A stretch of DNA of 64,000 nt from Armatimonadota bacterium. Its GTDB lineage: Bacteria; Armatimonadota; Fimbriimonadia; Fimbriimonadales; Fimbriimonadaceae. The notes under the pieces were generated by a model. It was given only the letters and a program-made list of their open reading frames with translations. It ran no database searches and was not told the origin of the DNA. Location: contig JAEURN010000011.1 in the NCBI GenBank assembly GCA_016789105.1, positions 1-64,000 of the forward strand, given 5' to 3'. This document shows, piece after piece, positions 48,619 to 56,637 of this stretch. The translations under genes were made by a program, and so were the position numbers. Numbering within the stretch: position 1 is the first letter of the stretch; each line of letters begins with the position of its first letter.

Positions 48619-48800
48619 ATCCGCGTGGAGGAGTTACCGCACAAAATGGATTTGGAGTCGGCCTGACCAGGTGAATGAGGTGTTCCTGCCAAATCGATCT
48701 AGTCAAGCAATGCAGAAATCCATTGTTCCAATTGGGCAAGCAGGGTGTTCCCTGACCTCCTAATGCCTTGTTAACAAACCGTCATGGTAAAACGCCGGGC

Positions 48801-50357
48801 ATGCTCAGGCGCGACTTTTTGAAAGGGACGGCCGCTCTTGCCGGATCCCTCCCGTTGGCAAATGCGATCTTGGCGGCCCCCCCGGCCGAGGCGCAAACCG
48901 TTGCGAAGGGGCGCGTGACCAACAAAGCGAACGGCAAAGGGATCGCCGGGGTCATGGTGAGCAACGGGCTCAGCACCGTCAAAACCGACTCTGAGGGCCG
49001 ATATGAAATCCCAGTTGGGGACGACACCACTATTTTCGTCATCAAACCCCGAGGATTCGCCCTGCCCCTGGATAGCAACAACCTGCCCCAGCACTTTTAC
49101 CACCACAAGCCGAACGGGTCGCCTGCCACGCGGTACGAAGGGGTTAAGCCCACGGGGAAACTACCGGAGAGCCTCGACTTCGAACTCACACCGCAAAAAG
49201 AGCCAGACCGGTTCAAGATGATTTTGTTTGGGGATCCGCAGCCCCGCAACCGGCAAGAGATCGACTTCATGTCCCACGACGTGATTGAGCAGGTCGTCCG
49301 GGATGAATCGGCGATGGAAGCCTTGTTCGGCCTCAGTTTGGGAGACATCATGTTCGACAACCTGCAGTTTTACGAGGCCTTGAATCAATCGCTGGCCACC
49401 ATCGGAAAGCCTTGGTACAGCACGGTTGGCAACCACGATTTGAACTACGATTCTCCGGACAACGACATGAGCACGGAGACGTTCCGCCGTGTGTATGGCC
49501 ACAACTATTACGCCTTTGAATATGGACCGGTTTTCTTTGTGGTTTTGGACAACGTGTTCTGGGATGGATCCGAAAACGGTTACCACGGCGAGATCCCCTA
49601 TGCGCAATTAGCCTGGCTGAAGGCCGTGCTGAAGAACGTGCCCAAGGAAAAGCTCCTTGTCCTAGCGATGCACATCCCGATCTGGAGCACCGACAACCGC
49701 GAAGAGCTATTCCGGATCATCGAAGACCGGCCATACACCCTTTCGTTCAGCGCGCACACCCATTACCAACGTCATGACTTTTTGGGCGAGAACGATGGTT
49801 GGCGAGGCGAGACCCCCCACCACCATTTGAACCACGCCACGGTCTGCGGCTGCTGGTGGGGCGGCACGCCCGATGAGCGGGGCATCCCCCATGCAACCAT
49901 GTCCGATGGTGCCCCCAACGGGTACAGCATCGTCGAATTTGACAAGACCAAGTACAAAGTAGTTTTCCGCCCCGCCTCCCGGCCCACCCACGAGCAAATG
50001 GCCATCTATCTGCCCGAAGAAATCAGCCTGGGTTCAAGTGCCGATGCCAAGCTCCTGGTCAACGTCTTCGCCGGTTCCCAGGACAGATCCAAGGTGGAGG
50101 CCAGCTTTAATGGCGGCCAGTGGATCCCGGTTCCGAATGCTCCGGGCAAGGATCCTTACATCCAACGATTGAAAGAGTTGGAAGGCCAAGACCCCAAGCC
50201 TTTGGGGAGGCCGATCGCCGGACCGGAAGAAACGCCGCACATGTGGCAAACGCCGTTGCCTAGCAACTTGAAAAAGGGCCTCAACACCGTGGATGTCCGC
50301 ACCATTGATATGTTCGGCCACACATTTGTCGAGCGGCGGACATTCCGGGTCGTTTGA
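48801..50357 (+). CDS. Tat-exported metallophosphoesterase
   Basis: 518 residues. MLRRDFLKGTAALAG is a twin-arginine signal, followed by a short carboxypeptidase-regulatory-like strand region (residues about 36-100). A calcineurin-like catalytic domain follows: FGDPQPR, LGDIMFDN, VGNHDLNYD, MHIPIWS and SAHTHYQ are the metal-ligand motifs in order. A C-terminal beta domain follows. It probably hydrolyses phosphoesters in the periplasm; the substrate is unknown. ATG 48801 is chosen over the longer frame because of the Tat motif. Confidence 0.88.
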   Translation: MLRRDFLKGTAALAGSLPLANAILAAPPAEAQTVAKGRVTNKANGKGIAGVMVSNGLSTVKTDSEGRYEIPVGDDTTIFVIKPRGFALPLDSNNLPQHFYHHKPNGSPATRYEGVKPTGKLPESLDFELTPQKEPDRFKMILFGDPQPRNRQEIDFMSHDVIEQVVRDESAMEALFGLSLGDIMFDNLQFYEALNQSLATIGKPWYSTVGNHDLNYDSPDNDMSTETFRRVYGHNYYAFEYGPVFFVVLDNVFWDGSENGYHGEIPYAQLAWLKAVLKNVPKEKLLVLAMHIPIWSTDNREELFRIIEDRPYTLSFSAHTHYQRHDFLGENDGWRGETPHHHLNHATVCGCWWGGTPDERGIPHATMSDGAPNGYSIVEFDKTKYKVVFRPASRPTHEQMAIYLPEEISLGSSADAKLLVNVFAGSQDRSKVEASFNGGQWIPVPNAPGKDPYIQRLKELEGQDPKPLGRPIAGPEETPHMWQTPLPSNLKKGLNTVDVRTIDMFGHTFVERRTFRVV

Positions 50358-51585: not shown

Positions 51586-54500
51586 TTAGGGCCGCTCGTT
51601 TCGGGTTTGTCCAGGGCGGTTGCCATACTTTTCGTACAGCCGGGTTTGGCGGTTGGTCAGAGAGACTTCCCGGCCCTGGATCCAGGCCCGTTCGACCTTG
51701 GTGCTGATTTCGGTGATCTCCCCGTCGGCCAGGATGACCGTCCCTTCCATCCCGGGTTTGAGGGCCCCGACGCGGCTGTCGATGCCCAGGATTTGGGCAG
51801 GCCAAAGCGTGATGGAACGGGCAGCGTCTTCCCGGTTCAGGCCATAAGCGGCCGACCACCCGGCGATGTCCCGGAGTTGCCGGGTGTCCTGATTCTCATT
51901 CATGGTAAGAGCAAACTTGACCCCGGCTTTGGCAAGCCGTGCGGGCATGCCGTAGTAGTAGTCGAGGGGCTGGTCGGCCCTGGGGATTCCAAACACCGAA
52001 GCGAGGATGACCGGCACTTTTTTGGCGGCAAGCCAATCGGCAATCTCGCCGGCGCCGGTGCACCCATAGAGAAGGATGCGGACATGGTTGTCCTCCGCCC
52101 ATTTCACCGCCGATTTGATGTCGTCGGCCGTGTTAGCCGAGATCATGACGGGGAGCCGCCCTTCGGCGACTTCGAGCATGGCCTCTTGCCGTTGATCCCG
52201 GGCCACCGGTTTCTCTGGCGTTGCTTCGGCCCGCTTTTTGGCATAGTCGCGGGCGTCGTTGATCCTTTGGGTCAGGGCATCCATCCCCGGGGGCGGGGTT
52301 TGATTCTGGCCTTGGCCTTGCCCCCTTCCTTGCCCCGGAGCACCCTGTCCGGCGCGGAATTCCAGGTCAAGTTGGGTTGCGAGCTCAAAGTCGTGGTCAT
52401 GGCCATCCAGCCCATCGTCGCACCGGCAAAGGTTGGAGAGAGCTTCGTGCATATCGCCAAACCGGCCACCTCCCCGCCCGACGGAATACATCAACGCGAC
52501 ACCACCCTGGATGGTGAGGTCCTCCCAGGTATAGCCTTCGGTGTTGATGAGCGCGGCCTGCCCCGGTATCCCTCCCCCACTCGGTTTGACGACGACGGTG
52601 AGGATGCCTTGTTGGCGGGCAACGCCGAGCGTGTCCCATTCGGCATTGATGGTGCGTTCTGCCCGATAGTCGGGATGGAAGTCGCCCCGTTCGCTGCTGT
52701 CGTCACTGGCTGGAACCTGCCCGATTTCGGCCATGCCGAGCCCGGTTGACGGGTCGATCAGGCCGGGGTAGACGTGTTTTCCGGTCCCATCGACGACCTC
52801 GGCGCCTTTGGGGCTGAGCCCCTTGCCGGTCGACGCGATCTTCCCATCGGCCCCAATCAGGATGTCCCCGGTGAACGACTCGCCGGTCATGGGGTGGATG
52901 GTGGCGTTTTGGATTAGGGTCGCCCCACGCGGGTACCGCACGGTTCCCGGTTCGCCAGAGATGTCGGCCAATCCAAACGTCGCCGTGGTCGGACTCATGT
53001 CTTCGTTGGCAGTGTTGGCTTGGGCTCCTCCGCCCGTTGTGAACGGGTTAGAGGGCGTGTTGGATTCCAAGATCTTTTTGGCCGCCAGCAGTTCCTGTTC
53101 CCGTTCGGCCCGCTGTTTGGCATCATTCGCCCGGTCGAACCTCTTGACCCCGTCGACATAGGTTTCCAGGGCGACGGCGTAGATGCTCGTCGGTTCGTGG
53201 CTCCAGACGACGAAATCCGCATCTTTGCCGGCTTCTAAACTTCCCGTCCACTTGTCGATCCCCAGCTGTTTGGCTGGGTTGATGGTGACAAAGCTGAGGG
53301 CCGTTTCGGCATCGACCCCGCCGTACCGCATCGACTTGGCGGCTTCGATGTTCAGGCGTCGGGCATGGTTGTTGCTGTCGCTGTTGACCGAAACAACAAC
53401 TCCCCGCTGGGCCATGAGGGCGGCGTTGTAGGGGATGGCGTCATAAGATTCAAGCTTGAATCCCCACCAATCTGAAAAGGTCGAGCCTCCCACGTTGGCG
53501 GCGGCCATTTCGTCGGCGATTTTGTACCCTTCTAGCACGTGTTGCAGGGTTGCCAGATGCGTCCCAAACTGCTTGCCGATCCGGATGAGCATGAGGAGTT
53601 CATCTTGGCGGTACCCGTGGCTGTGGATCCACCGTTGGCCGCTGGCGATTTCACCCAGGGCCTCTAACTGGAGGTCGCGGTGGGGTTTGACCGTGGTTTT
53701 CCCCGAATTGAAATCCTCCCACGCCTGGTTGTATTCTTTGCCAAGTTGCAAGGCCCTGCGGATGGCTTCTTCAACCCCCATCCTCGTCCGAGGGCGGAAC
53801 GTCAGGAGAGTGGTTCCAACCACCGCACTGCGCGGGGAACCGTCATCTTCGTTGATCGGATTTTGTCCGAGGGCGAACTTGACCCCCTCAGGCGAGCCCT
53901 GGACGTGGTAGTCGTCCGGCCGCAAACCCCACCGCCATTTGACGACGTTGTTTTGGCCGCCGATGGCATTGGCTGAACCATGGAGCTGGTTTGCCCCGAC
54001 CGTCCCGCCGGAAAGCTGCTGGTAGATCGCGGTATCGGTTTGGTTCATGCAGTCGCGGATCCGGCATTCGGCCGTGATCATGTTTGTGGACTCATTGACC
54101 GAACCGAGGATGGCGGTGTGGCTGTGGCAATCCCAAATACCGGGTGAAATGTGTTTGCCTGTCGCATCGACCACCTGGCAACCGTTCGGGGCGCTGAGGT
54201 TTGGCCCGACTTGGACGAGCTTTCCGTCTTTGACCAACACGTCGCAATTGGGGATCGTCCCCCTCGGACCCTCGGTCCAGACTGTGGCATTTTTGTAGAG
54301 CCGGTAGGCCGCCGTTGTTTCGGCGGGAGCAGGGAAAAAGGCGTGGTTGGGAGCCGGCAACTTGAACGGCTCATCCGGCTTCAAGGATTTCGGATCTTTG
54401 GGCTCTGGCTTTTTGAATTCGGCAGCCTTCCCTTCAATGACCGTCTGCATGACTTGGCTCGACGAGTCCAGGATGTCGCCTTGCACAACGGTGAAGCTGG

Positions 54501-55647
54501 CGACCTTGCCTTTTTCCAGAGTCCCGTAGCTATCCGAGATGCCCAGGATCCTTGCCGGCTCGGTGGTGACTGAGGCGAGGGCCGCTTTGCGACTGAGCCC
54601 TCCCCGGACATAGGTGCGCAACCCTTCGAACGGATTGGAAGCCGTTGCGGGCGAATAGGCGAAGGAGATTCCCGCCTTTTCCAACTCGGCCCCTGCCTGC
54701 ACTTCGTTGAAGTACTGCCGGACTCCGGCAAGGCTGACCGAATCAAGGTTGTCCCCGATCCGAGGGGGGACTGGGATCCGGCCCTGCAACAAGACTGGCG
54801 CGCCGGAAGATTTCAGGAGGTCTTTGACGGCGCCGGAATCCGACCGGAACCCATAGACGGGGCTCAGGTTGAATTCATTTGCGATGCGCTGGGCTTGGAA
54901 GTAGCTGGTTTCGGTCAAGTCGTCGAACAGGGCATATTGCTTGCCTTCCAAAACCGGCTTGAGCCTTGTCAGGCCGATATCGTCTCCTCCGCCGTATTCT
55001 TGGGCATCGATCAAAGTCTGCCGGATGACATAGATCACGCCCATCGTGCTGGTTGGGTATCCACCTCCGCCAAAACCACGCCCGGCAAGGCTGAATGAAA
55101 CCAGCGAATCGTCCGTCGCGCCGGCCACGGATTTGGTTCCCGTTTTAGCGATGGCACCGCGCGCGCCGATCAGCCCCCCAGTGGCCTGGATCCGGGCCAA
55201 GCCGTAGCCATACTCGGCCAAAGATTGAAGGCTGTCCGATTCAAATTTTTCGGCAGTGGCGACCGACTTGGCCAGCAAGAAATTGGCCTCCCGGTTAAAT
55301 GGGTCTTTATCGCGTTTGGCCTGCTGGGCTTGGAGTTCCGACACGGAGAGTTGCTGGCCGAACCCACCGGTGGAAGGGGCGGGCGAAACCCCGGCGACAT
55401 TTGTTGCCGTGCCCGGGTGGATGAATGCCGGGTAAACGGTCATCCCTGAAAGGTCTTCGGTTTTGGCACCCGCGGGGGCCTTGACGGATTTGCCGACCTC
55501 GGCGATCCGCCCTCCTTGGACAAGGAGGCTGCCCTTTTCGACAACCTGCCCGGGTGAGACATAGATTCGGGCATTGGTGTAAACGATGACACCTTCTTGC
55601 CCGGCGGTCAAGCCCGCAGAAAGGGCGAGCATCGCGGTGATGAGCAT
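51586..55647 (-). CDS. Triple amidohydrolase-fold fusion protein, secreted
   Basis: 1,353 residues with a signal peptide (LITAMLALSAGLTAGQ). Three imidazolonepropionase/amidohydrolase-like modules follow each other (about 20-430, 450-890, 940-1353). Each starts with a beta-sandwich strand (YTNARIYVSPGQVV, YKNATVWTEGPRG, IQNATIHPMTGESF) and a V...G...PG/PA.I motif. Only the middle module has the metal-binding DCHSH. The first reads YPAFIHPGT and the third YPGLIDPSTG, both without HxH, so they are probably inactive or structural. TATGAT at 55659-55654 puts the transcript start exactly on ATG 55647. Confidence 0.85.
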   Translation of the reverse strand: MLITAMLALSAGLTAGQEGVIVYTNARIYVSPGQVVEKGSLLVQGGRIAEVGKSVKAPAGAKTEDLSGMTVYPAFIHPGTATNVAGVSPAPSTGGFGQQLSVSELQAQQAKRDKDPFNREANFLLAKSVATAEKFESDSLQSLAEYGYGLARIQATGGLIGARGAIAKTGTKSVAGATDDSLVSFSLAGRGFGGGGYPTSTMGVIYVIRQTLIDAQEYGGGDDIGLTRLKPVLEGKQYALFDDLTETSYFQAQRIANEFNLSPVYGFRSDSGAVKDLLKSSGAPVLLQGRIPVPPRIGDNLDSVSLAGVRQYFNEVQAGAELEKAGISFAYSPATASNPFEGLRTYVRGGLSRKAALASVTTEPARILGISDSYGTLEKGKVASFTVVQGDILDSSSQVMQTVIEGKAAEFKKPEPKDPKSLKPDEPFKLPAPNHAFFPAPAETTAAYRLYKNATVWTEGPRGTIPNCDVLVKDGKLVQVGPNLSAPNGCQVVDATGKHISPGIWDCHSHTAILGSVNESTNMITAECRIRDCMNQTDTAIYQQLSGGTVGANQLHGSANAIGGQNNVVKWRWGLRPDDYHVQGSPEGVKFALGQNPINEDDGSPRSAVVGTTLLTFRPRTRMGVEEAIRRALQLGKEYNQAWEDFNSGKTTVKPHRDLQLEALGEIASGQRWIHSHGYRQDELLMLIRIGKQFGTHLATLQHVLEGYKIADEMAAANVGGSTFSDWWGFKLESYDAIPYNAALMAQRGVVVSVNSDSNNHARRLNIEAAKSMRYGGVDAETALSFVTINPAKQLGIDKWTGSLEAGKDADFVVWSHEPTSIYAVALETYVDGVKRFDRANDAKQRAEREQELLAAKKILESNTPSNPFTTGGGAQANTANEDMSPTTATFGLADISGEPGTVRYPRGATLIQNATIHPMTGESFTGDILIGADGKIASTGKGLSPKGAEVVDGTGKHVYPGLIDPSTGLGMAEIGQVPASDDSSERGDFHPDYRAERTINAEWDTLGVARQQGILTVVVKPSGGGIPGQAALINTEGYTWEDLTIQGGVALMYSVGRGGGRFGDMHEALSNLCRCDDGLDGHDHDFELATQLDLEFRAGQGAPGQGRGQGQGQNQTPPPGMDALTQRINDARDYAKKRAEATPEKPVARDQRQEAMLEVAEGRLPVMISANTADDIKSAVKWAEDNHVRILLYGCTGAGEIADWLAAKKVPVILASVFGIPRADQPLDYYYGMPARLAKAGVKFALTMNENQDTRQLRDIAGWSAAYGLNREDAARSITLWPAQILGIDSRVGALKPGMEGTVILADGEITEISTKVERAWIQGREVSLTNRQTRLYEKYGNRPGQTRNERP

Positions 55648-55905: not shown

Positions 55906-56637
55906 ATGCGAACCAGGCATGTCTTTTATCAGAGGGTTGATGGCGATAGTGTCATGCTGATCATTGCCGCCGAGTCGGCAGATTTTCCATTGAAATCCCA
56001 TGGTTATATTGTCCAGGCGGTCTTCCCATTCAAGCAGAATGAAAGGGGTTGGTCGGATCCCGAAGAAGGGGATCGGGTCAACGAGTTAGAAGACAAAGTC
56101 ATCCAAAAGCTGGAAATGCTCGGGATGGTCTACGCCGGCCGAGTCAAAATCCCGGGCGTCGTCTTCTCCTCGTTTTACTCGCCAGAACCGGGGCCCGCCT
56201 CCGTCTCGGTCAGCACGAGTCTCCTGCGCAAAATCGAAGTCGAGTTGACGAGCACGCCCGATCCGGAGTGGGGCTATTACAAGAAATTTTTTGTCCCCAC
56301 CAAATTGGAAAGTTACATAGGCCAATGTGCGCAACTCCATAACCAACTGCGCAAGAACGGCGACGTCTTTTCGATTCCGCGCGAAGTCGATTTCGCCTGC
56401 ATCATGCGCAAGTGGGATAATGTCGGCCCCTTTTTGGCTGAAGCCGCAACGATGGGTTTTGTTTGCCCGACCCCACCGGAAAAATCTGGCAGCAAGGGTG
56501 AGTATTGGTGCGTCTTTGTGCGGACGACATCGATCGAGCCGGAAGTGGTTTGCCAGCTTAGCCTGGACCTGAAGGAAGTTGCCGAAAAATACGGCGGCGA
56601 GTTCGATGGCTGGGCGAGTCCGGTGATGAAGGCCTGA
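55906..56637 (+). CDS. DUF695-RraB-like two-domain protein
   Basis: 243 residues. Residues 1 to about 135 resemble DUF695 (VMLIIAAESADFPLKSHGYI). Residues about 145-243 follow the RraB (regulator of RNase E activity) pattern: ACIMRKWDNVGPFLAEAATMGFVC, a strand-rich middle, and AEKYGGEFDGWASPV. CATACT at 55895-55900 places the transcript start one base from the ATG. An RNA-decay link is only inferred from RraB. Confidence 0.7.
   Translation: MRTRHVFYQRVDGDSVMLIIAAESADFPLKSHGYIVQAVFPFKQNERGWSDPEEGDRVNELEDKVIQKLEMLGMVYAGRVKIPGVVFSSFYSPEPGPASVSVSTSLLRKIEVELTSTPDPEWGYYKKFFVPTKLESYIGQCAQLHNQLRKNGDVFSIPREVDFACIMRKWDNVGPFLAEAATMGFVCPTPPEKSGSKGEYWCVFVRTTSIEPEVVCQLSLDLKEVAEKYGGEFDGWASPVMKA

Follow-up and report, generated by a model that had tools for sequence, protein, structure and literature searches.

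The 64,000 nucleotides analysed here (contig JAEURN010000011.1, positions 1 to 64,000, hereafter the window) belong to contig 11 of an Armatimonadota bacterium of the family Fimbriimonadaceae (assembly GCA_016789105.1), whose genome measures 2.75 Mb. The minus strand of the window carries, from 51586 to 55647, an open reading frame (ORF) of 1353 amino acids that starts with ATG and encodes three consecutive amidohydrolase modules (M1, M2 and M3), of which only the middle one has kept its metal ligands. A search of the whole genome for paralogues of this gene returned a single match, the gene itself; two of its three best named relatives (L032 and L033) bear Armatimonadetes titles. The features of the gene are the following.

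51586..55647, minus strand: three-module amidohydrolase ORF, 1353 aa, ATG start
55600..55647, minus strand: probable export leader, residues 1-16, a hydrophobic stretch with no K/R before it
54412..55596, minus strand: M1, residues 18-412, predicted full barrel and composite sandwich, no metal ligands
55006..55059, minus strand: M1 signature Y197-P198...R209-Q210...D214, each residue in 60/60 M1
53113..54327, minus strand: M2, residues 441-845, active-type amidohydrolase
54118..54126, minus strand: H508-x-H510, metal ligands of strand 1, 79/79 M2
53878..53880, minus strand: K590, proposed carboxylated bridging lysine of strand 4, 79/79 M2
53617..53619, minus strand: H677, proposed ligand of strand 5, 79/79 M2
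53539..53541, minus strand: H703, proposed ligand of strand 6, 79/79 M2
53377..53379, minus strand: D757, proposed catalytic aspartate of strand 8, 79/79 M2
51613..52947, minus strand: M3, residues 901-1345, predicted full barrel and composite sandwich, no metal ligands, with a low-confidence insert at 1059-1120
52690..52737, minus strand: M3 signature G971, E974, D983, E986, beyond the site where HxH is lost, in 65, 62, 65 and 63 of 65 M3

The original prediction had described three amidohydrolase modules with a repeated start motif and an HxH pair in the middle one only, and re-reading of the ORF together with its relatives bore this out: the motif stands at residues 72-79 (YPAFIHPG), 501-510 (SPGIWDCHSH) and 960-966 (YPGLIDP), and HxH is confined to the second copy. 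Chance repetition of the motif was ruled out, because the three modules are homologous over almost their entire length in profile-profile alignments (M1-M2, E 3.9e-54; M1-M3, E 5.6e-74; M2-M3, E 2e-67). The whole protein matched the Pfam families PF01979 (105.5 bits, gathering threshold 25) and PF07969 (104.1 bits, threshold 29.7), with several amidohydrolase stretches. Taken alone, M1 (34.7 and 36.2 bits, respectively) and M2 (61.0 and 54.9 bits) scored above gathering; M3 (19.1 and 26.5 bits) fell below it, yet it is the module that aligns with M2 nearly full-length at E 2e-67. Three more specific models stayed under their cut-offs with the whole protein and with single modules, namely imidazolonepropionase TIGR01224 (99.3 against 298.15 bits for the whole protein), Xaa-Pro dipeptidase NF051886 (95.2 against 500 bits) and dihydroorotase TIGR00857 (63.3 against 279.05 bits; 28.7 bits for M1, 30.5 for M2, M3 not listed).

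Segments that spanned 80% or more of the profile of their module numbered 99 for M2, 72 for M1 and 84 for M3, and removal of near-identical copies left the 79, 60 and 65 sequences, respectively, on which the ligand counts are based. H508, H510, K590, H677, H703 and D757 were all present in 79/79 distinct M2, a set that fits a binuclear metal site; the ligand roles of these six residues, including that of K590 as bridging lysine, are those we presume from the general anatomy of the superfamily. In the window protein K590, H677, H703 and D757 are, like HxH, confined to M2. Among the aligned distinct relatives HxH occurred in none of the 60 M1 and none of the 65 M3, so that no orthologue in these sets has intact ligands in all modules, the pattern named beforehand as the one that would speak against pseudoenzymes. 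At the six aligned ligand positions 50 M1 sequences had no match, nine had one and a single sequence had two; the corresponding numbers for M3 were 45, 16 and four, the position equivalent to K590 being uncertain in M3 as it falls in the low-confidence insert. The residues that stand at the ligand positions are variable in both outer modules. No His or Cys column reached 85% conservation in the aligned M1 or M3 sets; a different metal site of the common type is therefore not evident there.

The outer modules are nevertheless maintained. Columns conserved in at least 85% of sequences numbered 36 in M1, 94 in M2 and 37 in M3. Nine columns of M1 are invariant in 60/60 sequences, among them Y197 and P198, which in the structure model lie just before a predicted helix, and R209, Q210 and D214, which lie inside it. 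In M3, G971 and D983 were conserved in 65/65 sequences, E986 in 63/65 and E974 in 62/65; the counterpart of E986 in M2 is E519, a glutamate in 78/79 M2. The ratio of non-synonymous to synonymous substitution rates (dN/dS) was estimated on seven close pairs with all three modules, with M2 identities of 80-99.9%, three of the pairs sharing the same three loci. It was 0.03-0.11 for M1 (five usable pairs, dS being saturated in the other two) and, over the seven pairs, 0.014-0.10 for M2 and 0.017-0.20 for M3, rough values since several dS exceed 1. Ratios so far below 1 indicate purifying selection and make pseudogene decay of M1 and M3 unlikely; together with the loss of ligands common to all 60 M1 and 65 M3, they support the earlier proposal that the outer modules are pseudoenzymes.

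By sequence, M2 matched the Thermotoga maritima protein of known structure 3ooq over its full length (E 1.4e-47), and by fold with Z of 43.8 and 44.3, the rmsd being 2.0 (368 residues) and 1.9 (372 residues), respectively, at 34% identity. Two AlphaFold2 models were built, one of M1-M2 (residues 18-885; pLDDT 92.3, pTM 0.92) and one of M2-M3 (residues 441-1350; pLDDT 88.9, pTM 0.89), and the predicted order of strands and helices is alike in all three modules. Besides the window, 92 of 101 alignment rows were retained in alignment A1, 94 of 107 in A2 and 68 of 101 in A3, the remainder being dropped by hand; A3 was used instead of A1, in which rows covering M1 alone had their final ~66 residues wrongly placed on M2; A3 is free of these rows. 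The structure matches listed all fell on M2, which filled the lists, so that the lack of entries for either outer module by itself excludes nothing. We infer that pTM values of 0.92 and 0.89 need a defined placement of both modules in each pair.

The arrangement of the modules was surveyed at 80 distinct loci (from L001-L084), with ORFs taken from stop to stop. The three modules are fused into one ORF in 24/80 loci; M1 is separate from a fused M2-M3 in 16/80, M2 and M3 are separate neighbours without M1 in 13/80, a fused M1-M2 has no M3 within the fetched stretch in 12/80, and a fused M1-M2 is accompanied by a separate M3 in 11/80. The other four comprise a fused M2-M3 followed by M1 (L035), a contig-edge locus with M2 only (L042) and two genes with an interruption inside M3 (L008, L056). 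Wherever a locus has several module ORFs (43 loci), all lie on the same strand, overlapping or at most 115 bases apart. The locus titles include Armatimonadetes, Planctomycetota, Acidobacteria, Pedosphaera, Ignavibacteriales, Cyanaurora, proteobacteria and Actinomycetes, some titles of metagenome-assembled genomes being doubtful, e.g., that of L060, Bifidobacterium breve. A Hymenobacter locus (L105) also has matches to all three modules, its M1-M2 being split over several frames. In Armatimonadetes bacterium Uphvl-Ar1 the three-module gene (L008 467-4491, and L032 5983-10007 in CP021423) has a frame change inside M3 that is either a sequencing error or a real break.

Since 13/80 loci have M2 and M3 without M1, M1 is not needed everywhere, and the idea of M1 as a universal partner was rejected; three such genomes from outside the home order, searched whole (G249, G250 and G251), held no strong match to M1. 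Co-occurrence was counted by eye within the order, over 61 genomes: the complete trio is present in 39, no module in 17, nothing beyond weak generic matches in four and M3 by itself in one (G060, 81% complete), so that M2 was found without M1 and M3 in 0/61. Several genomes of family f2 encode M3 away from M1-M2; in G041 the two lie at about 358261 and 2113073 of one contig, ~1.75 Mb apart, and still co-occur. A wider search gave at least 96 of 201 genomes with any match, weak generic ones included, and was not used for co-occurrence.

In a FastTree tree of 151 modules, M1 formed one clade (45/45), M2 grouped in 45/46 cases with one paralogue apart, and the main M3 clade held 49/56. IQ-TREE on 70 of these modules gave support of 100 for M1 and 84 for M2, with 17/22 in the M3 clade, and separated M1 and M3 from M2 and the single-domain enzymes with an ultrafast bootstrap of 99. 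The IQ-TREE result supports a single loss of ligands for the trio, and its simplest history would be that an intact enzyme was duplicated, one copy lost its site and the dead copy was duplicated again, giving rise to M1; long-branch attraction could affect the inferred descent, and members of the wider family blur this simple history. One further Armatimonadota locus (L099, 89-2784) carries a second, divergent pair of adjacent M2 and M3 genes, in which M2 keeps its ligands and M3 is without HxH.

The wider family includes head-to-tail runs of related modules in other Armatimonadota, with eight in L112 (1-11000) and a ninth in L120 (100-1491), eight in L113 (1-10000 of a 10.4 kb contig) and nine in L115 (1-11722), in a module order that is similar by eye. 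All six ligands occur together in 1/8 modules of L112 (the L120 module not counted), 2/8 of L113 and 1/9 of L115, and in 0/3 and 1/3 modules of shorter runs at contig ends (L114 and L116, respectively). Partly broken sites (HYKHHD, HSKYLD, HHKRGD) occur as well, which argues for repeated loss of ligands in the wider family. When these modules were added to an unrooted FastTree tree, intact and broken sites interleaved, and a single ligand loss for the wider family was not supported; M1 and M3 of the trio still fell on one side, with the exception of the M3 of L099.

We consider it fairly probable that the protein is a fused three-part amidohydrolase complex in which M2 is the sole catalytic unit. 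M2 would be a binuclear metal-dependent hydrolase of the 3ooq kind, probably acting outside the cytoplasm, where it would break a C-N bond in a small molecule. The two outer modules would go back to a copy of the same enzyme that had lost its ligands, and would have been retained as pseudoenzymes docked onto M2, which would depend on them to be stable, to assemble or to give its substrate pocket the right shape. The original prediction had offered scaffolding or ligand binding as roles of the outer modules, and hinted at substrate presentation. The scaffold or partner role gains indirect support from gene fission and fusion, from all-or-none co-occurrence in the order and from the confident two-module models. 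An alternative is substrate presentation, in which the empty barrels of M1 and M3 would hold substrate or an effector and feed M2. It is suggested by the predicted completeness of both barrels and by the acidic E974, D983 and E986 that M3 keeps soon after the lost HxH, the last of them aligned with E519; the invariant signature of M1, however, sits at and in one predicted helix and not at the ligand positions, and the residues at those positions vary in both modules, so we regard this role as unlikely. The same conserved residues of M3, with Y197, R209, Q210 and D214 of M1, could also serve a different reaction, metal-independent or differently liganded, but the lack of any conserved His or Cys column in M1 or M3 makes such a second catalytic activity highly improbable.

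Adjacency or fusion might instead reflect a shared pathway without physical interdependence of the modules, as the f2-family genomes with a distant M3 would allow; modules devoid of ligands have no evident separate step in a pathway, however, and both two-module models are confident, which leaves this explanation quite improbable. We give hardly any credence to M1 and M3 as functionless remnants of duplication in decay, for which their fewer conserved columns compared with M2 and the frames interrupted inside M3 could be cited, since the low dN/dS of both modules, their invariant residues and full predicted folds, and the fact that they survive as genes of their own in records of many different titles all speak against it. 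Several observations count against the fused complex that we favour. In L008/L032, as in L056, an interruption of the three-module frame falls within M3, and M1 is missing from the 13/80 loci already mentioned. The trio is also absent from two of seven genomes of the same genus (G001 and G002), so it is dispensable in the lineage. The module interface is judged indirectly, from pTM. M3 is not one clade, 7/56 (FastTree) and 5/22 (IQ-TREE) of its members lying outside the main group, and intact and broken sites interleave once the tandem runs are included. Finally, single-domain relatives in Bacillota and Actinomycetota keep all six ligands (4/4, L108-L111), so the fold does not depend on partners in every lineage.

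A broader form of the fused-complex proposal is that an ancient hetero-oligomeric amidohydrolase had metal-less paralogues as obligatory partners in assembly or pocket formation of one live paralogue, a design that would have expanded into the tandem runs with their one or two live centres. This is possible, and we put it forward tentatively; if true, the tandem runs would be a class of mostly pseudoenzyme assemblies, of which no description was found in open PMC full texts. A live enzyme and two dead paralogues in several states of fission and fusion amount to a natural series of constructs for the function of dead copies. They also call for caution in annotation: in Hymenobacter and Qipengyuania the database names of M3 genes, whose products have no metal centre, are 'amidohydrolase' or 'amidohydrolase family protein'.

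Judging from its N terminus, the three-module protein is likely to be secreted: the leader encoded in the window is hydrophobic and has no K/R before it, by a simple hydropathy rule applied without a control. A hydropathy score of at least 1.6 near the start was noted for 12/14 separate M1, 12/17 M2-M3 and 18/24 separate M3 ORFs, counted by eye with a cut-off set afterwards and without a control set. Clustering of the ORFs that flank 37 loci, together with those of the window, gave no pointer to the substrate among the 14 largest clusters, and conserved neighbours were set aside as a substrate clue; we read the largest clusters as mere shadows of the module genes, antisense or in another frame. 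One cluster, of five loci, includes the ABC transporter of the window, and a cluster of five acidobacterial loci resembles, by a motif that we take to be diagnostic, dihydropteroate synthase. The four window neighbours scanned against Pfam matched Metallophos, BSP, DMT_6 and RraB/DUF695, none of them being the gene of an aspartate transcarbamoylase partner. Two of the neighbouring genes are given below.

48768..50357, plus strand: calcineurin-like phosphoesterase with MetallophosN and MetallophosC domains and, by eye, a twin-arginine-like N terminus
55906..56637, plus strand: protein with DUF695 and RraB domains within one chain

In Qipengyuania citrea (L107, 3111-7600) a gene for a peptide transporter of the major facilitator superfamily (MFS) precedes adjacent M2 and M3 genes, a single case that gives a possible hint of a peptide-like substrate.

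Among known systems, T. maritima 3ooq is close to M2 in fold and sequence and has, by eye in the alignment, the same ligands, but it is a single module; its gene is TM0814, and no paper on it was found in open PMC full texts under the PDB id or the gene name. The single-domain amidohydrolases L108-L111 are near intact relatives that likewise differ in having one module, each of them being matched by all three module profiles and best by that of M2. Proteins of the CRMP/dihydropyrimidinase-related group, which gave weak sequence matches in the PDB, have an amidohydrolase fold without enzyme activity; they are stand-alone eukaryotic adaptors and are not fused to an active copy. No description of the M1/M2/M3 form was found in open PMC full texts. 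A pseudo-dihydroorotase is known from aspartate transcarbamoylase, where it is paired with a transcarbamoylase, an enzyme that differs from it in fold. In the Pseudomonas aeruginosa enzyme an inactive dihydroorotase-like chain is reported to be required for activity and assembly (PMC7053772), and the role of M1 and M3 may be comparable by analogy. The differences are that the partner in our case is an active paralogue of the same fold, that there are two pseudo-modules, and that all can be fused into one chain. The arrangement of pseudoenzyme and enzyme is thus known in kind, and in the present family it is real and well conserved.

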